Origin: Bacteroidales bacterium
Lineage (GTDB): Bacteria > Bacteroidota > Bacteroidia > Bacteroidales > JAAYJT01
Reading direction: 5' to 3'
DNA: 51,827 nucleotides
Assembly (NCBI GenBank): GCA_012522795.1
Contig: JAAYJT010000058.1
Location: forward strand, 1 to 51,827
Shown here: positions 3,990 through 50,695 of the stretch, one piece after another
Numbering within the stretch: the stretch's first letter is position 1
Layout of the letters: every line of letters begins with the position of its first letter
Notes under the pieces: model-generated
What the model was told of the DNA's origin: nothing
What the model saw: the letters and a program-made list of their open reading frames with translations, nothing else
Database searches by the model: none
Program-made: the position numbers and the translations under genes

Positions 3990-4031
3990 AAGAGGCTAAT
4001 TGATAGTCAGCTCATTATCAATTAGCCTCTT
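3990..4031. terminator. Bidirectional terminator hairpin
   Basis: A perfect 16-bp inverted repeat (3990-4005 with 4016-4031) with a 10-nt loop lies between two convergent genes. It is A-rich on one side and T-rich on the other, so it can act in both directions. It includes the last codons and stop of the minus-strand gene ending at 3996. Confidence 0.85.
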
Positions 4032-5954
4032 ATTATATTGCTGGATAAATGCCTTAAGCATGGTTTCCATTTCAACACCTTTGCTGCCTAAAATCCCAAT
4101 ATCATCGTTAAGAAGCAAAGGATCAGTAACAAAATCATAGGCATTGGTAATTTTCTCACTATCAAAATAGATAAGGTATTTATCCATGGTCATCAGGTAA
4201 TATGAATTGAAATACTGCAAAGTATAAGCAGTAGTGGTTGTGTCAAACAGATTTCGTCCAAAAGCTATAAAAGGCTGATCATATTCCATGTATCCGAGAA
4301 CAGAAGGCATAATATCAATTTGCTGAGCAACCTCTTCATGAACTCCTGCAAGGCTGTTGTCGGCTTTGTAAAAGAATAGCGGCACAGCAAAAGCGCCAAG
4401 ATTGGTCTGATACTCCGGAATAAATGTTCTGTTTGGATGATCGGCAGTAAAAACAAATAAAGTGTTCTCAAACCAATCAGTTTTACTGATAGTTTCGAAA
4501 AACCTTCTGAATGCATAATCAGTATATCCAGCACATTCATGCATTGGATGTATGCCTTTGGGAAATACATTTTTATATCGCTGCGGCAGATTATAAGGAT
4601 GATGCGAGGTGGTAGTAAAAATTGCAGTACAAAATGGTTGCGGAAATTCATTTATTTTCTCAGCCCAGAACTGCAGGAATTCTTCATCCCATATCCCCCA
4701 ATAACCGTCAAAGTCACTTTTATTGCCATATTCGCTCATACCATAATATTCCTTAAAACCTGCGATATTAGTGAAAGCAAGAAATCCCATTGACCCGTTT
4801 GGTGCTCCGTGAAAAAATGAAGTGTGATAGCCTTTTTGCTCTAAAAGTGAGCCTATACTGTTTATCCGGTTCGAAGCATATTTTGTGAGCACATAAGGTT
4901 CAACCATCATTGGAATAGAAGAAAGCACCGAAGGTAAAACATCAATTGATTTTCTGCCATTCGAAAATGAATATCTGAACATCAGGCTTTTATCAATGAT
5001 TGAATCAAGAAAAGGAGTGTATCCCGTATAGTCTCCGCTTTCAATCAAATGTTGGTTATACCTGCTTATATATTCGCGCCCCATGCTTTCAATTATAATT
5101 ATAACTACATTCATGTGTTTGAACTGATTTTCAGTGGCAGGTATATGAACCGGATTGAATGCAAGTTCCAGGTCTTCGTTATTTTCAAAATATTTCTTGT
5201 ATTCAAGTGTTTTCTTGCCAATGGTTCGGTAAACTGCGAAAGGAGTATTCAATACAATAGCAATTTCGTTTGGATTGTCAACAAACTGACCTGCATTGCT
5301 TAAAGTTATTGGACGGGTACTGTGCCGAAAACCACCACGAAGACCAGCAACAATAAATACACTGAATATTGCAAGGATAATAATTCCGGTGACAAAGAAG
5401 AAAAGCTTTTCATTGAACTTCCGCAAAGGGTAATAATTAACCGGTTTATTATAAGTCCATGCCAGGAACAGTATCATCAAAACAAAGAGCAGTAGGAGGT
5501 ACCAATATTCGCTTAAAAACTGAATAGACAGACTGAGAATATTAGTTTCGTTGCCAAACTCGCTGAAAACACTTGCTGTTGTTCGCCTGAATGAGAATTT
5601 ATAATAGGCAATATCAGCACAATTGGCTGCCAGAGCAATACCATTTGTGGTAAGAAAAATGATTTTTGTTACTGTCTGATAGGTTTTTTTATACCTGAAT
5701 GAAAAGGGGAGGAGCAAGGCTATTATGTACAACAGATTGGTGTATAGAATTGCTGAAGTGTCAAAATACAGCCCTCCAACCATTATTCGCATCATTCTTT
5801 GAAAATTTATTCCCGGAAAAAGCGACAGGTTGAAAATATAAAAAGCCAGACGGGTAACGGTGAATAATAAATAAACCAGTAAAAGATTGTAGATTAGTAC
5901 GAAATATGTATTCCTTGATTTAAGGGAAGAGAAATACCGGAATATGAAATTCAT
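3996..5954 (-). CDS. LTA synthase/MdoB-family membrane transferase (sulfatase fold)
   Basis: This is a membrane enzyme of the LtaS/OpgB (COG1368) family, 652 residues. Five membrane segments cover about residues 17-205 and an alkaline-phosphatase/sulfatase domain facing the periplasm fills the rest. Landmarks: metal-ligand Glu in IIESMGREY (about E289), candidate nucleophile Ser in SNGRKSIDVLPS (about S336, where LtaS uses Thr), FFHGAPNGSMGF (380-391), SHHPY (450-454) and TADH (503-506). Family members transfer phosphoglycerol or phosphoethanolamine from a phospholipid to a glycan or lipid and release diacylglycerol; the donor and acceptor here are unknown. It is divergent from the lipid kinase gene at 6080 and paralogous to the gene at 7151-9118. 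Its 3' end lies inside a terminator hairpin. Confidence 0.88.
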   Translation of the reverse strand: MNFIFRYFSSLKSRNTYFVLIYNLLLVYLLFTVTRLAFYIFNLSLFPGINFQRMMRIMVGGLYFDTSAILYTNLLYIIALLLPFSFRYKKTYQTVTKIIFLTTNGIALAANCADIAYYKFSFRRTTASVFSEFGNETNILSLSIQFLSEYWYLLLLFVLMILFLAWTYNKPVNYYPLRKFNEKLFFFVTGIIILAIFSVFIVAGLRGGFRHSTRPITLSNAGQFVDNPNEIAIVLNTPFAVYRTIGKKTLEYKKYFENNEDLELAFNPVHIPATENQFKHMNVVIIIIESMGREYISRYNQHLIESGDYTGYTPFLDSIIDKSLMFRYSFSNGRKSIDVLPSVLSSIPMMVEPYVLTKYASNRINSIGSLLEQKGYHTSFFHGAPNGSMGFLAFTNIAGFKEYYGMSEYGNKSDFDGYWGIWDEEFLQFWAEKINEFPQPFCTAIFTTTSHHPYNLPQRYKNVFPKGIHPMHECAGYTDYAFRRFFETISKTDWFENTLFVFTADHPNRTFIPEYQTNLGAFAVPLFFYKADNSLAGVHEEVAQQIDIMPSVLGYMEYDQPFIAFGRNLFDTTTTAYTLQYFNSYYLMTMDKYLIYFDSEKITNAYDFVTDPLLLNDDIGILGSKGVEMETMLKAFIQQYNKRLIDNELTIN

Positions 5955-7150: not shown

Positions 7151-9118
7151 ATGAAAACACGGCTTATTGAGAAAAGACAACTTAACCAGCAATTATTACT
7201 ATTGTTAAGGCTTGGTTTTGTGTTTGTTCTGATGAGCTTTACACGCTGGTTGTTTTATATCTTCAACTTAAACAGTTTTCAGCATGTTAATGCCGGTGGG
7301 CTACTACGCATAATGTTAATAGGAATATTGTATGATGCAAGTGTTATAGCCTATTTTAACCTGCCACTTATTCTGTTTACCCAGATACCTTTTGGCTTCA
7401 GATATCACACTGGTTACCAAAGGTTCTTGAGAATATTGTATGTGATTACAAATAGTATTCTTATCATTTTCAATATGGTAGATGTTATTTTTTATCGTTA
7501 TATTTTTAAAAGAACTACTACCGAGATATCAGAATTTTTCTTCAATCCGGCTGAGAATTCAGGCAGTTTGCTTTTACAGTTTTTTATTGATTTCTGGTAT
7601 ATCGTACTGATTTCGTTTTTTTTAATTTTTCTGCTTTTTTTCTTCAGCCGATACTTTAAAAGCAAGAGTTCTGTCCATAACCGAAAGTCTGGATGGTATC
7701 TGCGCCAGTCTTTGTGGCTGTTAATATTCTCGTTTTTCACATTTATAGCTATGCGTGGCGGATTCCAGCTTAAACCCATAAAACTGATGAGTGCCGCTAA
7801 ACACACTGAAAACCGTAATGTTCCTTTATTGATAAACTCACCTTTTTCTATTATTAAGACCTTTGGAAGTAAGGCTTTAAAAGAAATATCCTATTTTAAC
7901 GAAAGTGAGCTTAGAGGTGTGTTTTCGCCTGTTCACAATGTAACTGGTATTTCAAAAGAAAATGACAGCCTGTTATGCAAAGGATACAACGTTGTTTTAA
8001 TCATCATCGAAAGTCTTGGAAGAGAGTATATAGGTTTCTACAATAACAGGCAGCCTTCACTTACTCCTTTTCTCGATAGCTTGTTCAGCCGGAGTATGGT
8101 TTTTGACGGTTTTGCCAACGGGAAACGTTCAATTGAGGCTTTGCCTTCCATTCTTGCGGGAATACCATCGCTTATGCCTGCTGACTATCCCAGCTCGCCA
8201 TACATAAATAACCGAATACAGGGAATGGGCACATTATTGAAAAACGAAGGTTATGTTACTGCCTTTTTTCATGGAGGAAATAATGGCACTATGGGTTTTG
8301 ACTTATTTTCTGTAATAAGTGGGTTCGATCAATATTTTGGAAGAAATGAATTTGCCTCCGATGAGTTTTTTGATGGTAACTGGGGCATATATGATGAGCC
8401 TTTTTTGCTGTATGCTGTTCAGGAAATCAATAAAATGAGTCAGCCTTTTGCTGCCGGGATCTTTACATTGTCGTCACACCATCCTTACAAATTGCCACCA
8501 CAGTTTCAGGGGAAGTTCACACATGCACAAAATGATATGGAAGCTACCTTTTGTTATGTGGATTACGCGTTAAAAACATTTTTCAAAGAAGCGGCACAGC
8601 AGCCCTGGTTTGAGAAAACTATATTTGTTATCACTGCTGATCATACGCCTGAGAATACTTATTTGAAGACTTCCCCGGACTTCGAAGCCGTATATGCAGT
8701 ACCGGTCGTATTTTATATTCCGGGTAAAAAGACCAGCTATACAGGGGAAGATGCACAGCATACTGATATTTTACCCACTGTCATGGGTCTGATTGGAACA
8801 GAACAGCTGGTTTTTTCGTTTGGACGCAATTTGTTAGATTCAGAATATCCGCCTTACATCCTGAACTACATGAATGAGATTTATAAGATAATTCGTAATG
8901 ATACCCTAATTATAACAAACGGAGAGAGCATTTCTGAAATGTATGATTTGTACAGTGACCCATCAATGGATCTAAATTTAATATCTTCAGCACGATCTTC
9001 TTCCGAACCTCTTTTAAATTTTGCAAGAGGAGTCATTCAGCAATATAATAACCGCATGATACACAATCAATTGTATCCTTTGTATGAAGACATTGAGTGG
9101 CTTTTAAGAAACCAATAA
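7151..9118 (+). CDS. LTA synthase/MdoB-family membrane transferase, second copy
   Basis: This 655-residue paralogue of the protein encoded at 3996-5954 shares the five membrane segments (about 15-200) and the periplasmic sulfatase-fold domain. Landmarks: IIIESLGREY (Glu near 287), ANGKRSIEALPS (candidate nucleophile near S327), FFHGGNNGTMGF, SSHHPYKLP and TADHTPENTY. The two proteins align over their full length, down to an IQQYNxRxIxN tail, but are clearly diverged, so this is not a recent duplication. Reaction: transfer of a phospholipid head group, probably phosphoglycerol or phosphoethanolamine, at the outer face of the inner membrane. It is on the same strand as the lipid kinase, 186 bases downstream. 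Confidence 0.88.
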   Translation: MKTRLIEKRQLNQQLLLLLRLGFVFVLMSFTRWLFYIFNLNSFQHVNAGGLLRIMLIGILYDASVIAYFNLPLILFTQIPFGFRYHTGYQRFLRILYVITNSILIIFNMVDVIFYRYIFKRTTTEISEFFFNPAENSGSLLLQFFIDFWYIVLISFFLIFLLFFFSRYFKSKSSVHNRKSGWYLRQSLWLLIFSFFTFIAMRGGFQLKPIKLMSAAKHTENRNVPLLINSPFSIIKTFGSKALKEISYFNESELRGVFSPVHNVTGISKENDSLLCKGYNVVLIIIESLGREYIGFYNNRQPSLTPFLDSLFSRSMVFDGFANGKRSIEALPSILAGIPSLMPADYPSSPYINNRIQGMGTLLKNEGYVTAFFHGGNNGTMGFDLFSVISGFDQYFGRNEFASDEFFDGNWGIYDEPFLLYAVQEINKMSQPFAAGIFTLSSHHPYKLPPQFQGKFTHAQNDMEATFCYVDYALKTFFKEAAQQPWFEKTIFVITADHTPENTYLKTSPDFEAVYAVPVVFYIPGKKTSYTGEDAQHTDILPTVMGLIGTEQLVFSFGRNLLDSEYPPYILNYMNEIYKIIRNDTLIITNGESISEMYDLYSDPSMDLNLISSARSSSEPLLNFARGVIQQYNNRMIHNQLYPLYEDIEWLLRNQ

Positions 9119-40259: not shown

Positions 40260-41252
40260 CTATCTCCCTTTTACCTTTTTAAGAATTCTCTTTAACAACT
40301 CTATAACCGAATCAAAGAAAATTACTATACCCATACCTTTATACATTAACTTGAAATGACGATATGGATAATTATGCCTTTTGTATTCAGGATAAGCTTT
40401 TGGTAAATTAAGGTCAATTGCATGTTTTAATTCTTCAAGACTTATATTCATCCGGTGCTCATCTTTTTGTTCCTTGAAGTAATTATATACTTTAATTTTT
40501 GTAGTAATTGCGCCATAATATTTGCTAGACTCACTTTTCGAAGACCATACACCACCGGAATGAACACGTCTGACTGAAGGTCCAACTGAGGCTAAAAACT
40601 TGCATTTGCCCAGAGTTCCTAAAAATGCATTTAAAAGATAATCGGCTCCAAAACCAGCCGGAGTTGATATGCCGTAGACATTAATATAATTAATGTAAAA
40701 CTTTGTAGCCGTGGCAATTCCTGAAGGAGTTGCTATTAATTCATCCTGAGTAAAATCCCTGCCTTTCTTTGGAAACGTGTTTTTACTCAATATACCATTA
40801 TTTATTCTTTTGTGAGAATGATAGCATAAACTGTAGTCACGGTTTTTTTCCATAAATTCCACCTGCTTTTGCAATTTCAATGGATCGGTCCAGTAATCAT
40901 CGCCTTCGCACAAAGCAATGTATTTTGCTACATTTCGTGCTTCATCAAAAGGCTTCCTTGCCTTGCGTCTTATCTCACCTTTTCTCCATGTGTTCTCTTT
41001 CTGGCAGAATGCAAATATCAGTTCCGGGTACTTATCTGCATATTCTTTTATTATTTCTGCTGTTCTGTCTGTTGAGGCATCCTCAAAAATACAAACCCTT
41101 ACTGGGAATGTGGTTTTTTGCATTAAAATGCCTTCTATGCAATCGCGAATATAAGACTCATGATTGTATGTTAGCGTACTGGTGGACACTAAAGGGAGAG
41201 TGCCTTCAGGCCATTTTTGTTCGGTGATAGGTGTTGGCTGAGACAATTTCAT
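40260..41252 (-). CDS. Glycosyltransferase family 2, tandem copy B
   Basis: The 330-residue GT-A protein shares the N-terminal donor-binding part (about residues 8-130) with copy A, including [19 protein letters not shown] and [10 protein letters not shown], with only scattered substitutions. From about residue 135 the sequences diverge: copy B has YHSHKRINNGILSKN and a GADYLLNAFLGTLGKC motif not seen in copy A. The pattern suggests duplication with later exchange or divergence of the acceptor half. It begins 12 bases after the formyltransferase gene. Confidence 0.9.
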   Translation of the reverse strand: MKLSQPTPITEQKWPEGTLPLVSTSTLTYNHESYIRDCIEGILMQKTTFPVRVCIFEDASTDRTAEIIKEYADKYPELIFAFCQKENTWRKGEIRRKARKPFDEARNVAKYIALCEGDDYWTDPLKLQKQVEFMEKNRDYSLCYHSHKRINNGILSKNTFPKKGRDFTQDELIATPSGIATATKFYINYINVYGISTPAGFGADYLLNAFLGTLGKCKFLASVGPSVRRVHSGGVWSSKSESSKYYGAITTKIKVYNYFKEQKDEHRMNISLEELKHAIDLNLPKAYPEYKRHNYPYRHFKLMYKGMGIVIFFDSVIELLKRILKKVKGR

Positions 41253-41264
41253 ATATGCACTGTT

Positions 41265-42119
41265 TTATTTTGATATGATTTTGTCAATTACAAGTATTTC
41301 CATCTCAGGGTGTAGTTCATAAAACACCCTGCCAACATTCTTATCTTGAGAATAAGAGGATAGATTCATTAAATCAAGCTGAGGGTACTTCTTTACAGAA
41401 TCGTTTAAATATTCTATAAATACTGTTATTTTATAATAAGATTTAACATAGTATTTTATGGCATAATGAATTTCCTTATGATTAATCTCTTTCAATTTAC
41501 CCTTGTCAATAAGCAATTGAACTTTTTTCTTAAATATTAATTTCCCGGTATCAATCCCTTCATCAATGTAAAAAATACTACAACCAAGCGGATCGTTATA
41601 TAATAATGAATAAAAAAAGTTGTCCAATCCTTTATAATTAGGGACTATTCCTGAATGAATATTTATGAATTTCACATCCGGAATACTTAAGATCTCTCGT
41701 TTTAATATGCCACTTGCCCCTACCAATATTACACCTTTAATATTTGATTTTATACAATTAATTAATTCATCGCTATTAAAATTATCTGATTCAATTGAAA
41801 TAACATTTAATTTATTCAAAATATCAGTCATTTTTAAATTTCTGATTTCAAATATGTTTTTTGGAAGAAAAACATCAACAACATTTTGAAAAGCTTTTCT
41901 TCTTTTATATTGCTTTTTACTATTATTAAAGATGAATAGTTTATTTGCTTTTTGTTTACCTATTAAAAATGATAAAATCTTATATTTCTTATTTACAGTT
42001 CTTGTTTTGGGGTGAATCAGAATTATCGTTTTAGGATAATAACCGGCTCTGATCAATTCAGAAAGATATATATCTGTAACCAGATTGCCGTTTTTCATTA
42101 TAAGTGAGAACTCAACCAT
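41265..42119 (-). CDS. Formyltransferase-family protein
   Basis: The 284-residue protein has the core of the methionyl-tRNA/sugar formyltransferase family: FINIHSGIVPNYKGLDNFFY (about 149-168, with the catalytic Asn-His pair) and FYIDEGIDTGKLI (about 182-194, with the catalytic Asp). Enzymes of this kind move a formyl group from N10-formyl-tetrahydrofolate to an amino group. In a polysaccharide locus that also encodes a VioA-like aminotransferase, an N-formylated amino sugar is a sensible product (inference). The N-terminal part is divergent. The gene is visibly AT-rich. Confidence 0.78.
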   Translation of the reverse strand: MVEFSLIMKNGNLVTDIYLSELIRAGYYPKTIILIHPKTRTVNKKYKILSFLIGKQKANKLFIFNNSKKQYKRRKAFQNVVDVFLPKNIFEIRNLKMTDILNKLNVISIESDNFNSDELINCIKSNIKGVILVGASGILKREILSIPDVKFINIHSGIVPNYKGLDNFFYSLLYNDPLGCSIFYIDEGIDTGKLIFKKKVQLLIDKGKLKEINHKEIHYAIKYYVKSYYKITVFIEYLNDSVKKYPQLDLMNLSSYSQDKNVGRVFYELHPEMEILVIDKIISK

Positions 42120-42122
42120 GTT

Positions 42123-42464
42123 TTAAATCTTATAAAAAGTCTCTTTTAATTCCTTAATATTTTCGTAATAAGTTGACTCATCTATTATTGCTTTTGACAA
42201 CATAAGATCGTTTAACTTAAAAGCGCTGTTTAAAAATTTATAATCACCTGATGTCTTTAATATGTGAAATAATGAAATATAGCTGATATTTGAGATCTCT
42301 GATTTTGATTGAGGTTTAGACAAATCAAGATCATAATATTTAAAGATGATCTTGTATACATCAATATGCTTTACTATTTTATCAAATAACAAAATATTAT
42401 CTTTAGTTATTTTTCCTTCTTTTTTAATAGTGCTTTCTATATTTATGGATTCATCGCTAATCAT
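42123..42464 (-). CDS. Uncharacterised 113-aa protein in coupled cassette
   Basis: I do not recognise this protein. It is 113 residues, charged and mostly helical in pattern, with no signal peptide, membrane segment or metal motif; the N-terminus is SDESINIESTIKKEGKITKD and the C-terminus has SALKLN-like and YENIKELKETFYKI helices. Its start overlaps the stop of the cytidylyltransferase gene by 4 bases and its stop is 3 bases before the formyltransferase start, so it is almost certainly translated with them. Possibly a small partner of the LicD or cytidylyltransferase enzyme. Confidence 0.65.
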   Translation of the reverse strand: MISDESINIESTIKKEGKITKDNILLFDKIVKHIDVYKIIFKYYDLDLSKPQSKSEISNISYISLFHILKTSGDYKFLNSAFKLNDLMLSKAIIDESTYYENIKELKETFYKI

Positions 42465-42865
42465 ATTTCGTAATTTTTAAGGATTTCGCGTAAACGGGTT
42501 GATGAGATCCCTTCAGTTCTTGTGGATGTAACAATTTCTTTATTGTTTTTTCTGCACCAATCAAATGCTTTTTGAAAATATTTATGATTTTGGTCAGGAC
42601 CACGCATAAAAACATCAAACTCTACTTCTTTTACAATTAGATCAACTCGCTCATAAGGAATTACCTTATCAACAAATTTTATATTTTCTACCAGGCGCAT
42701 GCGTTCTTCAAGACTATAAAGAAAATCTACTCCTTTTATGTTTAGCTTATCATCATGTACGGCTACAATTATATAGTCTCCATACTTTTTTGCCTGTTCA
42801 ATTACATTTAGATGTCCAATATGAAAAAAATCAAAAACACCTACCATTAATACTTTCTTTTTCAT
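42461..42865 (-). CDS. Cytidylyltransferase (TagD-like nucleotidyltransferase)
   Basis: The 134-residue protein is of the HIGH-motif nucleotidyltransferase family. VGVFDFFHIGHLNVIEQAK (about 7-25) holds the HxGH catalytic motif, and TRTEGISSTRLREIL near the C-terminus holds the ISSTRLR motif. Closest by pattern are glycerol-3-phosphate, choline-phosphate and ethanolamine-phosphate cytidylyltransferases (TagD, Pcy). With the adjacent LicD gene it could form a CDP-activated alcohol and transfer the phospho-group to the glycan. The exact substrate is unknown. It overlaps the LicD gene and the next gene by 4 bases each. Confidence 0.88.
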   Translation of the reverse strand: MKKKVLMVGVFDFFHIGHLNVIEQAKKYGDYIIVAVHDDKLNIKGVDFLYSLEERMRLVENIKFVDKVIPYERVDLIVKEVEFDVFMRGPDQNHKYFQKAFDWCRKNNKEIVTSTRTEGISSTRLREILKNYEI

Positions 42866-43773
42866 ATAAAAACTTTTACAGTTAAAGGGACTTTATATTC
42901 TTTTAAATGATCTGTATTGAAATTTCCTTCTTTAAAACTGAAATCCATTTTTGTTGGGTTTTGCCAGTTACCATATACGTGTGTCAGGTAGTCCATGTGA
43001 TTATAAGGCAGAAAAAGTTTTTTACCTCCTTTGTTTAATTCATCGTATCCATTAAAATGTTCAGCTTTACACGAAAGATATTTTGTTTGCATCACAACTG
43101 ACAGATTATCAAAAGTCCTGCGGATCCTCACTCCAAATTCAAATTCATGGAAATCTTCATTCCTGCCATTGAACCGAATTTCATAATAGCGTATTTCATC
43201 TTTATCGGTCACTTTCTTAAGTACATACCAATCAAGTTCATCAGAATATGGAAAGCTGCTTATATTGTTTTTTAAAAGATTTCCAAATTTCTCAACATTC
43301 TCATAGTTTATTGCAAAATCAACGTCATCGTCCCATTGTATTATATCACCATCTCTGACAAATCCTAAAAGTGTTCCATATTCGAGATAAAGGACTATAT
43401 CATTTTTCTTTGCCAGTTCAGATAAATAAAAGATCATTTCTCTGGCCATTTTATGAGTTTTCTCATTTTCAAAGGGCTTGCCGTTTTTTAGTTTATATTT
43501 GTAAGGAACAAATATTTTATTTTCCGGTATATTTGTTCTTTGCTTTAGTTGCTCCTTTATTGCATCTATATATGAACTGACAATGAGTATATAATCAAAT
43601 TCGTAATTATCAAAACAATAGGGATTTATAACTGTAATACCCTGAATGCTTTCTCCATGCTTTTCATAGTCCCAATCGGTTATTCCAATTATATCATATT
43701 CGTCTCTGTAATTTCTGATGTAATTATTAAAAGCCCATCCAGTACCAAAAATTATTACTTTTTCTTTTTTCAT
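42862..43773 (-). CDS. LicD-family phosphotransferase-like protein
   Basis: The 303-residue protein has two parts. Residues about 1-100 resemble a Rossmann-type fold (VIIFGTGWAFNNYI). Residues about 110-300 are LicD-like, with YLEYGTLLGFVRDGDIIQWDDDVDFA (about 128-153), containing the GTLLG and DDD metal-binding motifs. LicD transfers phosphocholine from CDP-choline to a sugar; here the donor may be any CDP-alcohol made by the neighbouring cytidylyltransferase. It overlaps both flanking genes by 4 bases. Confidence 0.88.
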   Translation of the reverse strand: MKKEKVIIFGTGWAFNNYIRNYRDEYDIIGITDWDYEKHGESIQGITVINPYCFDNYEFDYILIVSSYIDAIKEQLKQRTNIPENKIFVPYKYKLKNGKPFENEKTHKMAREMIFYLSELAKKNDIVLYLEYGTLLGFVRDGDIIQWDDDVDFAINYENVEKFGNLLKNNISSFPYSDELDWYVLKKVTDKDEIRYYEIRFNGRNEDFHEFEFGVRIRRTFDNLSVVMQTKYLSCKAEHFNGYDELNKGGKKLFLPYNHMDYLTHVYGNWQNPTKMDFSFKEGNFNTDHLKEYKVPLTVKVFI

Positions 43774-44657
43774 AATTTTTTTATTTTTTCCTCAAAAATA
43801 CTTCTCACAATCTGTTCCATGTTGTATTGTGGCTGCCATTTGGTATCCTGATATAGTTTTGTTGAATCAAGTTCGGCATATAGTATTGCATCCGAAGGTT
43901 CTTTTTTTATTTCAACATCAATATGATAATCTTTGGCAACCTGTTTCACGGTTTCGGCTATCTCCTTTATAGTGTAACTTTTTAAATATCCAAGATTGTA
44001 AATTTGCTTCCAGTTTTTAAAAGGGATATTCAATAAAGCAATAATACCCGCCGCTGCATCATGGATATCAAGTTGAGAAAAAAGAAGATTATTATTTGAA
44101 ATTTTGATAGGATCACCTTTTAATGCACTATCAACAAATTTGGAAACCATTCTCGTATCTGCTCCAACACCAATAAGTCCGGCTAAACGTAGATTTGTAA
44201 ATGCTATATTTGAATTCTCCGATATTTTTTTTAAATACAGTTCAGAAAAGTACTTAACTGTTCCATATACTGTAACAGGTTCTGCTTCCATAATCTCATT
44301 CCATGGTGCTTGAATTTTTCCGTAAACCTCCTGGGTTGATATATTGATAATACCGGTTTTTTCATTTTTTGCTACATTATCAAACAGGTTCGTAGTAAAT
44401 AATAGGCTTTTAGCGATTTCTTTACCTTTTTTATGACCTCTTGCAAAAGCACAATGCACAATAATATCTATTTCAGATAAAAATGATTTTTCGGCAAACA
44501 ATTCATCGTTTGAAAGACCAATAACACTGCTTCCAAACCTCTCCTCAATTTTTACCTTGTTTGAAGTTAAAGCATAGATCTTATTTTCAGTTTTCACCAA
44601 CTGTTTTATAATCTCTGTGCCTAAATAACCGCCTGCGCCTGAAATTAATATCTTCAT
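43770..44657 (-). CDS. NAD-dependent epimerase/dehydratase (extended SDR)
   Basis: The 295-residue protein has GAGGYLGTEIIKQL (about 7-20) for NAD binding and YGTVK (about 131-135, the Y-x-x-x-K catalytic pair). Substrate unknown. The overlaps with the ATP-grasp and LicD genes (4 bases each) tie it to the cassette, so its substrate is likely made or used in that pathway. Confidence 0.86.
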   Translation of the reverse strand: MKILISGAGGYLGTEIIKQLVKTENKIYALTSNKVKIEERFGSSVIGLSNDELFAEKSFLSEIDIIVHCAFARGHKKGKEIAKSLLFTTNLFDNVAKNEKTGIINISTQEVYGKIQAPWNEIMEAEPVTVYGTVKYFSELYLKKISENSNIAFTNLRLAGLIGVGADTRMVSKFVDSALKGDPIKISNNNLLFSQLDIHDAAAGIIALLNIPFKNWKQIYNLGYLKSYTIKEIAETVKQVAKDYHIDVEIKKEPSDAILYAELDSTKLYQDTKWQPQYNMEQIVRSIFEEKIKKL

Positions 44658-45928
44658 AATTCATCTAAATTATAGCCCGGCATAACAACTGAATTTCCTT
44701 CTGTTGATATTACGTCAATTTTTTCTGTAACAACTTTAATAAGCTCTATCATTTCCGCCTTTGAATTACAAACAGCCAGTACTCTTACAACAACCTGATT
44801 TAATGTTCCTAATGCAGATTGTGGAATGGTTGTGCCAACTTCATGATTTTCAATAACTCTTAAAACGCCCGGCATTTTTCTTGCCTCTTCAATACCTAGG
44901 TACTCTTTAATAGTACAAGGCATAGCTAAAAAAGTGATATTGAAAGCATATTTATTCCTGAAATAAGGGTCTACTAAATGTTTAATGTCTCTATCACCCA
45001 TCTCTTTGGTCAAAGCATAATCCACCATCATTTCAAGTGGATTGTATTCACAAATATGTTCTAATATGTGATATTCCTGAGTTCCAGTTAATCTGAAACC
45101 AATGTCATAAAACATAAACTCATCATTATCAATAAACGACTGAATAAAGATCATACCATTTTTTAATCCTATTGAATTAAAAGCAGCAATGACTTTATTA
45201 TTCAGCTTCTTTATATAATTATTCAGATGTTGAGATGGGAAAATATATAATACAGGTAAGGGAATGGTGTATTTATCACCATTTCCGGTGTTCCTGTTAG
45301 CCAGAGCACTAAGCATTATTTTACCATTTTGTAAAATATAAAAGATAGTTACTTCCCGTGCATCAATGAATTTTTCTATAAGTGCTTTTTTCAATATAGA
45401 AACTTCTAGTGCATTTTTGTAACCTTTTCTTAATTCTACTTCATCATAACAAATTGAAATGCCATAGCCTCCGCTGCCATCAACTGGTTTTACCAAAACT
45501 GGATAGTCTGTTTTATTTACATCTTCAATACTGGGAATTTCCGGTACAACAGGGATATCAAATTTCCGAAACAATGCTTTATACCTGGATTTTAAGGAAG
45601 TATTTAGCATGTCTTCCCTGCTTGCATAAAAAGGCAGATTTAATGCCTCGCAAACATCTAATGTGCGCCAAATATTATATTCATGAATTCCTGTAAAAAC
45701 TGCATTAACTCTTTCCTTTTTACATTTATTGACTATTATATCCACATCGGCAGTTGATATATCCCATGCATCATAAGAAAGTTTTTTGGCAGGCGACTCA
45801 GATACAGGTAAATTATCTGTTACAATAGTATGCGCACCATTCTTATTTAGATATAGTACAATATCTTTAGATGCAATAGGCTTCCCAGCCATTATCAGCA
45901 CCTTTTTATTCTTATATTTTCCTTTCAT
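44654..45928 (-). CDS. ATP-grasp ligase
   Basis: The 424-residue protein is an ATP-grasp enzyme: N-terminal PreATP-grasp domain (VLIMAGKPIASKDIVLYL, about 9-26) and nucleotide loop DYPVLVKPVDGSGGYGISI (about 136-154), followed by the metal-ligand region with EFMFYDIGFRLTGTQEY. Members join a carboxylate to an amine, thiol or similar using ATP. In a glycan locus such an enzyme could attach an amino-acid-like acyl group to an amino sugar, but this is only a guess. It overlaps the genes on both sides by 4 bases. Confidence 0.85.
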   Translation of the reverse strand: MKGKYKNKKVLIMAGKPIASKDIVLYLNKNGAHTIVTDNLPVSESPAKKLSYDAWDISTADVDIIVNKCKKERVNAVFTGIHEYNIWRTLDVCEALNLPFYASREDMLNTSLKSRYKALFRKFDIPVVPEIPSIEDVNKTDYPVLVKPVDGSGGYGISICYDEVELRKGYKNALEVSILKKALIEKFIDAREVTIFYILQNGKIMLSALANRNTGNGDKYTIPLPVLYIFPSQHLNNYIKKLNNKVIAAFNSIGLKNGMIFIQSFIDNDEFMFYDIGFRLTGTQEYHILEHICEYNPLEMMVDYALTKEMGDRDIKHLVDPYFRNKYAFNITFLAMPCTIKEYLGIEEARKMPGVLRVIENHEVGTTIPQSALGTLNQVVVRVLAVCNSKAEMIELIKVVTEKIDVISTEGNSVVMPGYNLDEL

Positions 45929-46626
45929 ATCAATTCATATTCATCCAACATTTCGTTCACCTCCTCTGCACTGTTAAACATAAGTACATCCAAAATTGAG
46001 AGCCATGGAACAAATTCATTGTTAAACTGCTTGTATTTAATAGGTAAGGTTTTAATAAATTTCAACTCAATATCCTGTTGTTTAAAATCTTCTTTTTTAT
46101 ATAATTCTATTCCTCCAATAGCGTTTATGTAGGTTTTAGTATTAAGTTGTTTGCAAATATATAATATCCTTTCTGTTCTGTTTAAATCATTAGAATTAGA
46201 AAAATCAGATGATGAAACATAAAACTCAGTTTTTAGCCCTAGATAAGAGGCGCAAACTTTTACACTCTCTATTGCAATTTCAGCAATATTATTATAATCT
46301 TTATTTAAGACAGGTTTGACAATCTTAATGACTTGATCAAAATATGGTGCTTTTTTATAAGCTATTTCAATGGTTTTTTGTAGTTTAAGATATTCTTTTG
46401 ATTGAAAGCCAATTTCAACCTCATTAATTAGTTTATTCTGGCTTGCTTTTAAAAGCGGAATAGTAAAGTGTTTTGCTATGCTATTAATCAGCATTCTGTT
46501 TCTGTTAACCCATCCTCTGTTTATATAGTTTACATCATCGTAAAACACGAACCTGTCAACAGCATTTAGGAGCTGAAAATATCCGATATAAGGTAGGAAG
46601 TATGGCTGCATGATAGCTGTTTTCAT
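45925..46626 (-). CDS. WbqC-family protein
   Basis: The 233-residue protein begins TAIMQPYFLPYIGYFQLL (about 3-20) and carries FYDDVNYINRGWVNRNRML (about 28-46), the signature of the WbqC family found in O-antigen loci. The biochemical role of the family is not firmly known to me. It lies first in the overlapping cassette and ends with a 4-base overlap with the ATP-grasp gene. It may contribute an acyl or aminoacyl modification together with that ligase. Confidence 0.85.
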   Translation of the reverse strand: MKTAIMQPYFLPYIGYFQLLNAVDRFVFYDDVNYINRGWVNRNRMLINSIAKHFTIPLLKASQNKLINEVEIGFQSKEYLKLQKTIEIAYKKAPYFDQVIKIVKPVLNKDYNNIAEIAIESVKVCASYLGLKTEFYVSSSDFSNSNDLNRTERILYICKQLNTKTYINAIGGIELYKKEDFKQQDIELKFIKTLPIKYKQFNNEFVPWLSILDVLMFNSAEEVNEMLDEYELI

Positions 46627-46631
46627 AGTAT

Positions 46632-47426
46632 CTACTCCTTCTCAGTGCTTTTTACGTCTTCTTGCAAATTTTTTACAAATTCTTTAACTTTCATTGCATT
46701 TGATTCCAAATTATCTGATGTATCAATATCTAAGACAGGTAAACCTTTTCCACGTAAAAGATCAACAAACATTTTTTTATTGTTGAGCGATGTTGTCTGG
46801 CTTTCAACTAGCTCGTTTAATGTTTTGTTTTTGTGTTGAGGTCTCATATGTTTTATGGTTTGGTGTCTTTCAATAATTCTTTTTGAGATTATCTCAGGAT
46901 TAGCATAGCAAAATACCAATGCACGGTTTTTTATAAGGCTAATGAGGTCTATTTCATTTTTTTGATGCAGCTCTATAATAGCACTTCCGAAGTTATGGAA
47001 TAATCCATCTTCCATTATTAATGTATATTTTTGATTGCTATGCCGGGCAATTATTTCTTCTTTTATATTTTTTAAATAAAATGTCATAAAACCTATAGTG
47101 TCTTTTGTATTATATTTTCTGGTTACTTGTTCATATTTTTTATTCAGTATTTTTTTATAAACAGGATGAATGTCTTTGGCTAAAGGCCATAAATTGCCGT
47201 TTATGTAATTTATATATTCTTTTACACCCATCCAGTTGTCGCCGGCAATTCTTAATTTAAGCATTGCTTTATAAAGTGTGGTTTTTCCTGCTCCGGACAC
47301 TCCGACAAACTCTATGAACAGTGGATCTTGATAGGTTAAAGTATGTATTTTAACTTTCTTGCCAGGATTTATTCTTACTATCTTGTATCCAAGTTTATTC
47401 AGGAAATATTTAATAAGATTTTTCAT
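46632..47426 (-). CDS. P-loop kinase-like protein
   Basis: This 264-residue protein has a Walker A motif GVSGAGKTTLYKAM (about 42-55), and a basic R-rich lid-like segment (IIERHQTIKHMRPQHKNK, about 188-205), the layout of thymidylate-kinase or small-molecule kinases. It has no membrane segment. A sugar or alcohol kinase that supplies a phosphorylated precursor for the cytidylyltransferase would fit the context, but sequence does not show the substrate. Confidence 0.7.
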   Translation of the reverse strand: MKNLIKYFLNKLGYKIVRINPGKKVKIHTLTYQDPLFIEFVGVSGAGKTTLYKAMLKLRIAGDNWMGVKEYINYINGNLWPLAKDIHPVYKKILNKKYEQVTRKYNTKDTIGFMTFYLKNIKEEIIARHSNQKYTLIMEDGLFHNFGSAIIELHQKNEIDLISLIKNRALVFCYANPEIISKRIIERHQTIKHMRPQHKNKTLNELVESQTTSLNNKKMFVDLLRGKGLPVLDIDTSDNLESNAMKVKEFVKNLQEDVKSTEKE

Positions 47427-47610: not shown

Positions 47611-48720
47611 TTATCTGTTTAAAAGACTACAAATATCTTCAACAGTGCTTAAAGATAGTTCAGGGTAGATTGGGAGGCAAAGTACCTGTTCAGCTATTTT
47701 GGTTGCAACAGGTAAATTCCTTATTGATGCTGATTCCAGGCTATTATAAACCGGAAATTGACTGATCAACGGATAGAAATACCTTCTGGAATAAATATTA
47801 TTCTTTTTCAACAGTTCATATACTTCATCTCTTGATTTGCCATATTCGTTTTTTCGTATCAAAACAGGGAAATATGCATAGTTGTGTTTAACATTCGGAA
47901 AGTCGTTCAATAATATTAATCCATCTCTGCCGGCAAGATTTTCCCTATACATTTCAGCAATATTTTTTCTCTTTTCTATTGCCTGATCTACATATTTGAG
48001 CTGCAGCAATCCAAAGGCAGCCTGTACCTCATTCATTTTGGCATTTATCCCCGGTGCTATTACTCTGGTTTCGCCGGCAAAACCAAAGTTTTTCAGATAG
48101 TCAATTCTCTTTTTTGTTTTTTCATCATGGCTTACTATTGCTCCTCCCTCAAAAGTGTTATACACTTTTGTTGCATGAAAACTCAGAACCGATAAATCAC
48201 CCCAGTTACATATTGATTCTCCGTTGATTTCAACAGCAAAGGCATGGCAGGCATCATAAATAAGCTGTAATCCGTAAGTATCAGCTATTTCTTTGATCTT
48301 ATGAACATTGCAGGGATTTCCGTAAACATGAACCGGCATAATGGCTGTTGTTGCCGGCGTGATCAGCGATTCTATCTTATCGGGGTCAATATTGAAAGTG
48401 TTTGGTTCGATATCGCAAAAAACAGGTTTGATCCCATTCCACCAAAGTGAATGAGTAGAGGCAACAAAGCTAAATGGAGTAGTAATAACTTCTCCATTGA
48501 TTTTGTTGGTTTGCAAAGCTGTTATTAAAGCAAGTGTCCCGTTTGAGAATAGAGAAATATGTTTTATACCCAGATAATCGCAGAGAGCTTGTTCCAGTTG
48601 TTGATGAAACTGTCCATTGTTTGTAAGCCATTTGTTTTGCCATATTTCTTCAAGATATGGAATAAATTCTTCAAGTGGTGGGAGATAAGGTTGCGTAACA
48701 AAAGTAGTTTTCTTACTCAT
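47611..48720 (-). CDS. DegT/DnrJ/EryC1-family sugar aminotransferase (VioA-like)
   Basis: The 369-residue PLP enzyme has VTQPYLPPLEEFIPYL at the N-terminus (about 8-23), the PLP-phosphate site FSNGTLALITALQ (about 58-70), DACHAFAVEI (about 155-164) and the PLP lysine in SFHATKVYNTFEGG (about 180-193). The N-terminus resembles VioA, which makes dTDP-4-amino-4,6-dideoxyglucose from the 4-keto sugar. No sugar dehydratase is present in the window, so the keto substrate must come from elsewhere. The formyltransferase in the same cluster could act on its product. Confidence 0.88.
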   Translation of the reverse strand: MSKKTTFVTQPYLPPLEEFIPYLEEIWQNKWLTNNGQFHQQLEQALCDYLGIKHISLFSNGTLALITALQTNKINGEVITTPFSFVASTHSLWWNGIKPVFCDIEPNTFNIDPDKIESLITPATTAIMPVHVYGNPCNVHKIKEIADTYGLQLIYDACHAFAVEINGESICNWGDLSVLSFHATKVYNTFEGGAIVSHDEKTKKRIDYLKNFGFAGETRVIAPGINAKMNEVQAAFGLLQLKYVDQAIEKRKNIAEMYRENLAGRDGLILLNDFPNVKHNYAYFPVLIRKNEYGKSRDEVYELLKKNNIYSRRYFYPLISQFPVYNSLESASIRNLPVATKIAEQVLCLPIYPELSLSTVEDICSLLNR

Positions 48721-48802: not shown

Positions 48803-50695
48803 CTATTTAACACTGAATATTTCGTCAGGATCATTATGAAAGCTGGCATTGTCCTGGCTTTTATTCAAATCCGATACCGGCTTGGGTTTATCAGAACGCT
48901 CTTTTGCCATTTCCCTGAATAATTTGTTTCTTTCTAAAAGTTCCTGATATGTTCCCTGATCAATGATCTTTCCTTTATCCATAAAATACAGCATATCGCA
49001 GTTCATAACTGTTGTAAGCCGGTGAGCTATCATGATCACTGTTCGTTCACCTTTCAGGTTTTCGATTGAGTCAATTATTTGTTGTTCAGTAATATTATCC
49101 AGTGCCGAGGTGGCTTCGTCCATAACAAGCACCTGTGGATTGTTATAAAGAGCACGTGCAATACCTACTCGCTGTCGTTGCCCACCCGAAAGGCGTGTAC
49201 CACGTTCTCCAACACGAGTATCCAATCCTTCAGGCAACTGGGCAACAAGTTCTTCAAGTTGTGCAAGTTTTACAGTCCTCAAAACTTCTTCTTCATCAAT
49301 GATTTTATCAGAAAGCCCAAAGGCTATATTTCGTCTGAGGCTTTCATCACCAAGATATATGAATTGAGGTATATAACCTATATTACGCTGCCATGCCGAT
49401 ATACTTTCATATATATTTTTACCATCAACAAGAATTTCACCTTGCTGTGGTTCTAACAAGCCTAATAATACATCCACAATAGTGGTTTTACCGGCTCCTG
49501 ATGCTCCTACGAATGCAATGGCTTTTCCATGAGGGATTGTCAGGCTTATACCATTGATTGCCTGCTCACTGCTATTGCTGTACTGATAAAAAATATTATT
49601 AATTGTGATATTGTTTTTAAGTTCGAGCTTATCCTTTTTTCTCCTGTCCTTTTCAAATTGTTTATTAAAGGGACGTAAGTACATCAGATCGTCGTAAACA
49701 GCATTCACTGATGGAAGATGGTATCTAATATCGGTTAATGTTTGGGTAATTTGCTGGATTGCCGGCATCAGGCGAATAATTGCAACGGCAAAGAGTGTCA
49801 GTATAGGTACAACATTTTCAATAGGTCGTCCTTGCAATACCATTAGCAGGGCAATAAGAATTACACCGGAAACAGCCAGAGTTTCGATCATAGGTTTGGG
49901 GATCATTGAAATAAACACCCTGTTTTGTTGAAGCCGACTGGATTTACGAGCCATGCTTCTGAATATTTCAATAAACTCATTTTCGCGGTTCAATACCCTT
50001 GCATCCTTTATACCTCCAAATCCCTGACGGGCTGCTCTAAGCATCTCGCGGCGGTAACGTTGTGCTTCTCTGCCAATAGTTTTCATCCTGTTTTGGGTCA
50101 TAAAAAGAAATATTCCGGCAAGGCCTCCCAAAACAACAGCAACAATTAGGGTTATCAAAGGCTCGATAAGAACTAAAAATACTATAACTGATGTTCCCAT
50201 GATTAATTCTTTCAAAATTATCATTGTGGGGCGCATAACACTGTTGATCATAAGATCAACTTCATTGGTTGTATTACGTAAAAGTTCGGTGGTATTGCGT
50301 TCAAGGTAAAAAGTATATGGGGCATGCATATAAGCGGTCATGAGCTTATGACTGAAGCTATACCGCCGGTTATATATGAATTTCGCTTCGACATAGCGGA
50401 AAAATAAAGTATAAGTATTTTTAATTAAAAAAATACTTATTAATCCTATACTCATGAAAATCAGCAATTCCCGTGGATTTTTGATGTTAAGGTATTTAAC
50501 TACTGAGCCAACGTATTTATGTTCCATTACCTTTTGAGGGTTTGCCACTACTGCAACAAATGCAGGTATAATCCCAATACCTATTACTTCAAGTACGGCA
50601 GCAATCATCATCAAACCAAAAAGAATGACGAGTTTTATTTTGTCGTTGCGTGAAAACAAACGACGTAGTTTTTGATATTCAGGTGGTAAGTGCAT
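48803..50695 (-). CDS. ABC exporter (permease-ATPase fusion), lipid-linked glycan flippase-like
   Basis: The 630-residue half-transporter has six membrane helices in residues about 20-320 and an ATPase domain with Walker A GASGAGKTTIVDVLLG (about 408-423), signature LSGGQRQRVGIARAL (about 508-522), Walker B VLVMDEATSALD (about 530-541) and H-loop AHRLTTV. Layout and length match PglK/MsbA flippases. Position first in a glycan locus without a visible Wzx supports flipping of the lipid-linked glycan, but this is inferred. It is separated from the regulator gene by a 209-base gap. Confidence 0.88.
   Translation of the reverse strand: MHLPPEYQKLRRLFSRNDKIKLVILFGLMMIAAVLEVIGIGIIPAFVAVVANPQKVMEHKYVGSVVKYLNIKNPRELLIFMSIGLISIFLIKNTYTLFFRYVEAKFIYNRRYSFSHKLMTAYMHAPYTFYLERNTTELLRNTTNEVDLMINSVMRPTMIILKELIMGTSVIVFLVLIEPLITLIVAVVLGGLAGIFLFMTQNRMKTIGREAQRYRREMLRAARQGFGGIKDARVLNRENEFIEIFRSMARKSSRLQQNRVFISMIPKPMIETLAVSGVILIALLMVLQGRPIENVVPILTLFAVAIIRLMPAIQQITQTLTDIRYHLPSVNAVYDDLMYLRPFNKQFEKDRRKKDKLELKNNITINNIFYQYSNSSEQAINGISLTIPHGKAIAFVGASGAGKTTIVDVLLGLLEPQQGEILVDGKNIYESISAWQRNIGYIPQFIYLGDESLRRNIAFGLSDKIIDEEEVLRTVKLAQLEELVAQLPEGLDTRVGERGTRLSGGQRQRVGIARALYNNPQVLVMDEATSALDNITEQQIIDSIENLKGERTVIMIAHRLTTVMNCDMLYFMDKGKIIDQGTYQELLERNKLFREMAKERSDKPKPVSDLNKSQDNASFHNDPDEIFSVK

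Follow-up and report, generated by a model that had tools for sequence, protein, structure and literature searches.

An overlap-joined operon in a Bacteroidales surface-glycan locus probably combines separate modules and pairs a small undescribed protein with a formyltransferase-fold enzyme

Does a run of six genes joined end to end by short overlaps carry out one reaction, or can such a run tie together parts of separate modules? The question is raised by positions 42123-46626 of contig JAAYJT010000058.1 (assembly GCA_012522795.1) of a Bacteroidales bacterium (JAAYJT01), a stretch of 51,827 nt that we refer to as a whole as the window. Here, genes for a WbqC family protein, an ATP-grasp ligase, an epimerase-type short-chain dehydrogenase/reductase (SDR), a LicD-family phosphotransferase, a TagD-like cytidylyltransferase, and an unnamed protein of 113 amino acids (aa) follow one another (Table 1). 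The first-pass annotation of this DNA had read the six genes as a single functional unit, with the 113-aa protein as a candidate new component of the LicD/cytidylyltransferase step. We propose, with a probability of roughly 60%, that they belong to a surface-glycan operon assembled from three modules, namely module A (a DegT aminotransferase, WbqC, and a family-2 glycosyltransferase, GT2), module B (ATP-grasp, SDR, LicD, and TagD-like enzymes), and module C (the 113-aa protein and the adjoining formyltransferase-fold protein), and that the 113-aa protein is a partner of the formyltransferase.

All six open reading frames (ORFs) are intact and lie on the minus strand, and successive genes share five four-base ATGA overlaps (45925-45928, 44654-44657, 43770-43773, 42862-42865, and 42461-42464). 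A gap of three bases separates the stop of the 113-aa ORF (42123) from the start of the formyltransferase gene (42119), and one of five bases lies between the upstream P-loop gene and the WbqC start. The positions and four-base overlaps reported at first pass were thus exact, and the overlap run bears out the tight single operon inside a surface-glycan locus that they had been taken to indicate. For comparison, we counted same-strand junctions with gaps of up to 300 bases in 26 loci, under one crude ORF and start rule, and found four-base overlaps at 59 out of 267 (22%), with a longest run of four (L111); in the glycan region of the window they make up 5 out of 12 junctions, all within the one run. 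Four-base overlaps as such are therefore common, while the run of five exceeds chance, and the gene run is a strongly coupled operon. This suggests coupled translation rather than one common reaction.

Neither Pfam nor NCBIfam has a family that the 113-aa ORF matches at E≤1. Its codon-use score per codon is 0.164 in frame, compared with -0.101 and 0.028 in the other sense frames and 0.096, 0.062, and 0.009 in the antisense frames, and six neighbor genes score 0.139-0.207 in frame (the neighbors being inside the training set and the 113-aa ORF outside it). The codon use is thus gene-like, which supports the ORF as coding. We found similar small ORFs in three other genomes: one of 99 aa in G227 (locus L038), a frameshifted one in G211 (L039), and one of 199 aa in G078 (L134). 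Each immediately precedes a gene for a relative of the window formyltransferase, an arrangement like that in the window itself, and the small ORF is intact in all loci except L039. Alignment of the 113-aa protein gives a score of 73 with the 99-aa protein and of 71 with the 199-aa protein, and these two score 67 against each other; none of 5000 shuffles reached any of the three scores, and 272 control ORFs scored at most 46 against the 113-aa protein. For the two pieces of the G211 ORF, the scores are 60 and 46 with the 113-aa protein (reached by 1 and 3 of 2000 shuffles), and 115 and 156 with the G227 protein (reached by 0 of 2000). The best common stretch is DYKFLNSAFKLNDL for the window protein, DIRFYNTALKIGDL for that of G227, and NYNDLNTVVKLNDL for that of G078. 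Judged by these alignments, the 113-aa, 99-aa, and 199-aa proteins are a small protein family, which we propose here. The expectation that the 113-aa protein is a real gene with homologues, of a family without a name, has therefore held, divergent as the homologues are. Its proposed place in the LicD/cytidylyltransferase step has not, since all three relatives occur immediately before a formyltransferase gene, and no LicD or TagD-like relative is present in their loci. The 113-aa protein looks like, and is best seen as, a partner of the adjoining formyltransferase, from which the boundary drawn at first pass likely separated it.

The window formyltransferase has matches in 108 of 395 genomes of the phylum at E≤1e-8, and most of the matches listed span a core of about 100 residues only. 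Among the formyltransferases compared, the longest alignments are those to the proteins of the three pair loci (residues 2-280 for G211, 6-280 for G227, and 105-281 for G078).

The gene order itself gives a second line of evidence. The search for it that the first-pass annotation had called for found the six-gene order in neither of the two other ATP-grasp loci (L006 and L007), in none of 20 WbqC loci, and in neither of the two further genomes with LicD (148 were searched), which speaks against a single functional unit and is an outcome that the first-pass annotation itself had named as refuting. ATP-grasp relatives at E≤1e-30 occur in 3 out of 395 genomes, the window's own included, and L006 and L007 (18.5-19 kb each) contain no LicD, TagD-like, or 113-aa relative at E≤1e-3. 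In L007, relatives of the ABC (ATP-binding cassette), P-loop, DegT, ATP-grasp, and GT2 genes stand in a similar order with other genes interspersed; at L007:9018-17769 the P-loop, DegT, and ATP-grasp genes are kept and the interspersed genes encode phosphonopyruvate-decarboxylase, MmgE/PrpD, and aldo-keto reductase proteins, as if a decoration cassette had been swapped. WbqC is frequent (67 of 138 genomes at E≤1e-20), and we examined its 20 best-scoring places other than that in the window. In nine of them WbqC shares 40% identity or more, and all nine have a DegT gene (40-60% identity) on the same strand within 1.6 kb; in five of these nine a GT2 relative (E<1e-25) lies within 1.8 kb of WbqC. 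None of the 20 loci contains a relative of the ATP-grasp, LicD, cytidylyltransferase, 113-aa, formyltransferase, or P-loop gene (E≤1e-5), and a weak SDR match was seen in four. Because DegT neighbors WbqC whereas the relatives of modules B and C do not, we assign WbqC to a DegT module that is joined here to others. A WbqC-like gene also lies near NeuB-like and NeuA-like genes and a PseJ-like formyltransferase gene (all named by eye) on a contig of the viral collection (L140:809-6626).

A number of observations weigh against the modular reading and the proposed pair. The small ORFs were sought beside formyltransferases (30 loci returned, the window's included, and 20 further ones fetched, with their flanks inspected), so that the co-occurrence of the two genes carries an ascertainment bias. 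Searches that do not depend on the formyltransferase are insensitive: a single-sequence search of the 395 phylum genomes with the 113-aa protein found only itself and missed G078, G211, and G227, all of which are in the searched set. Identities amount to only 21-34%, and His replaces the catalytic Asn in the formyltransferases of G227, G211, and G078 (FIHIHPG or FIHLHPG; L038:12528-13343, L039:13008-13799, and L134:9530-10330), while the window protein keeps Asn. The G078 protein also stays under the PF00551 cut-off, with 18.2 of 26.1 bits, and because of this and the Asn-to-His change the reaction may differ. The AlphaFold model of the 113-aa protein alone, a check suggested at first pass, has a mean confidence (pLDDT) of 51, which is low, shows nothing, and is too poor for a structure search. 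No other locus was found to carry module B as a set, and the 11 more distant WbqC loci show a loose DegT link, with a relative (26-29%) within 450 bases in three, one at greater distance or on the opposite strand in six, and none in two.

Further searches for the small family returned its own members. The 99-aa protein found only G227 and G211 among 92 genomes of G227's family, a three-row profile found only G078 among 32 genomes of G078's family, and the same profile found only its own members at E≤0.01 among 2748 ORFs (at least 60 aa) of 149 loci, in which the G211 pieces are too short to be included; there are thus none in the viral loci L138-L149 or the plasmid loci L129-L133. Plasmids gave no match to the 113-aa protein, viral contigs and solved structures no confident relative, and two scans of genome contigs none. 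For plasmid formyltransferases, no annotated small partner was seen among the neighbors of the 5 out of 18 matches inspected. A single PHROGs match to the 113-aa protein (E 0.0094) was unconvincing, and matches of a two-row profile in 10 other genomes among 198 of the order (E 0.0016-0.0375) were taken as chance, the ORFs being at least 283 aa long or containing stops.

The three other pair loci share a chemical context of their own. In G227, G211, and G078, a protein of 1036-1048 aa exceeds the PRK05849 cut-off (876.6-908.5 bits versus 501), a model that NCBIfam labels hypothetical protein and that we take to cover the Campylobacter glutamine kinase. The same loci encode a glutamine amidotransferase, for which gamma-glutamyl-CDP-amidate hydrolase is the best-scoring named model (104.6, 116.1, and 85.4 bits in G227, G211, and G078, under a cut-off of 250); when the G211 protein was compared with solved structures, GMP-synthase amidotransferases were returned instead. 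A nucleotidyltransferase of the NTP transferase type is present in G227 and G078 (scanned) and in G211 (by eye), PF04464 in G227 and G211, and a CDP-alcohol phosphatidyltransferase (CDP-OH_P_transf) in G078. These operons (L038:7972-12526, L039:7467-12027, and L134:10892-15511) thus resemble Campylobacter O-methyl phosphoramidate synthesis, whereas in the window LicD and a TagD-like enzyme take the place of such genes. Those in L038 and L039 adjoin tandem flagellin-like genes (by eye). The idea that the window's genome makes phosphoramidate was rejected: the window contains none of the pathway's enzymes, and the genome has no match to the glutamine-kinase-like protein of G227 at E≤1e-5, in a search without a positive control that shows little.

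How far do these observations favor the modular reading over others? If the six genes jointly made and attached one phospho-alcohol/amide substituent, with the 113-aa protein working with LicD or the cytidylyltransferase, their tight coupling would be explained, as would the adjacency of LicD and the TagD-like gene, which are neighbors also in L128, one of the two other LicD genomes, albeit on opposite strands. We consider this unlikely, however, since the order was found nowhere else, which largely refutes it as a conserved unit, WbqC pairs with DegT, and the relatives of the 113-aa protein adjoin formyltransferases in loci devoid of LicD and TagD-like relatives. At the other extreme, the overlaps might reflect mere operon compaction of genes that arrived singly and share no chemistry, with the 113-aa protein a fast-evolving accessory without a definable role. 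The frequency of four-base overlaps among the comparison junctions (22%) and the low GC content of the genes (0.23-0.33) fit this account, but the repeated position of the 113-aa family beside one type of formyltransferase in distant genomes does not, and we regard it as very improbable.

Another alternative keeps the pair and changes its target, such that the 113-aa protein and the formyltransferase-fold enzyme act on a CDP-activated or transferred phospho-group (e.g. by N-formylating a phosphoramidate or an amino-alcohol phosphate) and not on an amino sugar. In its favor, genes for CDP-linked phospho-transfer lie beside the pair in all four genomes, as LicD and the TagD-like gene in the window and as the phosphoramidate-type sets described above in the other three. 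Yet a DegT gene is present in all four pair loci, so that an amino sugar is available just as well. Three of the four enzymes have another residue at the catalytic Asn position, and the sample is small, with four genomes of which two belong to one family; we hold this target to be unlikely. Slightly less likely still is its stronger form, in which the two proteins would be a two-component enzyme that formylates such groups, the phospho-alcohol here and phosphoramidate in the three others, to give a formylated phosphoryl decoration, of which we found no description in the open-access literature searched.

Returning to the modular reading, we build on the observed gene order, homologies, DegT-WbqC linkage, and recurring 113-aa/formyltransferase arrangement, and infer from them all substrates, the sequence in which the steps occur, and that the two module C proteins pair physically. 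Proteins were named by scans against Pfam and NCBIfam cut-offs, and the names WbqC, ATP-grasp, epimerase-type SDR, LicD, and cytidylyltransferase given at first pass all hold against Pfam, with LicD matching over profile positions 1-88 of 227. Module A would make and handle a 4-amino-6-deoxy sugar built from dTDP-4-keto-6-deoxyglucose. The best NCBIfam model of the DegT protein is PLP_DesI (312.7 bits, under the cut-off of 650), and its best solved relative is 2po3, labeled 4-dehydrase, which we take to be DesI. An RmlB-like gene is present in the genome (66% identity to a query named by eye), and the usual DegT substrate could therefore be made. WbqC matches PF08889 over its full length (241.7 bits versus a cut-off of 21.3, positions 1-217 of 218).

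Module B would make a CDP-activated phospho-alcohol that LicD transfers to the glycan, a role already suggested at first pass and supported by family matches and motifs. The ATP-grasp enzyme, whose nearest solved relative is the L-amino acid ligase 3vot (E 8e-8), would form an amide-type bond, and the SDR contains GxxGxxG and YxxxK (read by eye). LicD has an additional N-terminal part of about 110 aa, and its match falls short of the full domain. Its acidic WDxDxD motif (W147, D148, D150, and D152) is common to two other LicD proteins, its C-terminal part aligns to them only loosely, and among solved structures it matches Fukutin-related protein 6kaj (E 2.7e-4). The LicD family occurs in 3 of the 148 phylum genomes searched, the window's own included, and at E≤1e-10 none of the 197 further genomes of the order (198 in total) contains a relative of the window LicD. 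In the remaining LicD genome (L127), BLAST found no TagD-like neighbor, and the neighbor of LicD resembles a LicC-type nucleotidyltransferase (by eye). The TagD-like enzyme keeps HxGH, RTEGISST, and the first lysine of the KxK stretch of two solved glycerol-3-phosphate cytidylyltransferases, whose catalytic lysines we presume to be these. Because the second lysine is changed and the TIGR01518 cut-off is missed (71.9 versus 165.4 bits), its alcohol is not fixed.

Module C would be a two-gene unit with the 113-aa protein as a subunit or stabilizer of the formyltransferase. The latter keeps N153, H155, and D190, presumably the catalytic Asn-His-Asp triad, and its most likely role is to N-formylate an amine in the glycan or in the glycan's sugar nucleotide. 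The product would most likely be a surface glycan that contains an amino sugar and bears phospho-alcohol and N-formyl groups, for which the ABC transporter is a possible flippase.

Parts of this scheme have counterparts in known systems. In the Campylobacter jejuni HS:1 capsule cluster, a TagD-type glycerol-3-phosphate cytidylyltransferase likewise feeds a phospho-alcohol into a surface glycan, and the available part of its description gives a TagF-like enzyme and no LicD, WbqC, or 113-aa protein (PMC11924219). The window enzyme also differs in lacking the second lysine seen in two solved enzymes. With the Lic-1 phosphocholine pathway, as far as the source describes it, the window shares LicD-family transfer from a CDP-alcohol to a glycan (PMC10434233). 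It differs in that no LicA, LicB, or LicC-type match was found among the ten window proteins scanned, and in its LicD, which carries the N-terminal addition and covers less than half of the profile. Sugar N-formyltransferases such as PseJ (6ci2, E 3e-8) and dTDP-4-amino-4,6-dideoxyglucose formyltransferase (6v2t) share the fold and the Asn-His-Asp residues with the window protein, which aligns to them over the core of about 100 residues only. The WbqC family PF08889 is called functionally uncharacterized in one literature source (PMC5532660), and to this we add a full-length member in an O-antigen-type locus and a counted linkage to DegT. We did not find the gene combination or the small 113-aa family in the open-access literature searched; the parts are known families, and what appears new is their combination and the small undescribed protein family.

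An orphan ORF thereby becomes a testable pair, a small family directly upstream of a distinct type of formyltransferase in distant members of one phylum, which lies three times within phosphoramidate-type operons. Should the pairing hold, a second formyltransferase subunit or a new phosphoryl decoration is hidden in some glycan loci. More generally, separate modules of a glycan operon can be tied together by a run of overlaps, and WbqC is best interpreted jointly with the DegT aminotransferase that accompanies it.

Table 1. Genes of the glycan region of the window, with positions, strand, and supporting matches.
Feature	Position	Strand	Support
ABC transporter, PglK/MsbA type	48803..50695	-	PglK model 338 bits, under cut-off of 1000
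DegT/DnrJ/EryC1/StrS aminotransferase, DesI-like (module A)	47611..48720	-	PF01041, 355 bits
P-loop protein, 264 aa, kinase-like	46632..47426	-	no family over cut-off (Pfam, NCBIfam)
WbqC family protein (module A with DegT)	45925..46626	-	PF08889
ATP-grasp carboxylate-amine-type ligase	44654..45928	-	PF13535, 32.6 bits (cut-off 27)
NAD-dependent epimerase/dehydratase-type SDR	43770..44657	-	PF01370, E 4.5e-21; under all NCBIfam cut-offs
LicD-family phosphotransferase	42862..43773	-	PF04991, 48.5 bits (cut-off 22.6)
TagD-like cytidylyltransferase	42461..42865	-	PF01467 (CTP_transf_like), E 1.7e-21; 1coz, E 1.8e-20
113-aa protein, unnamed family (module C)	42123..42464	-	homologues L038:13348-13647, L134:10293-10892
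Formyltransferase-fold protein (module C)	41265..42119	-	PF00551 (Formyl_trans_N), 57.8 bits (cut-off 26.1)
Family-2 glycosyltransferase (GT2)	40260..41252	-	PF00535

The P-loop protein has a relative (24%) in L007, beside the DegT and ABC relatives there. Elsewhere in the window, two related sulfatase or lipoteichoic acid (LTA)-synthase-like membrane proteins are encoded on opposite strands at 3996-5954 and 7151-9118 (by eye).

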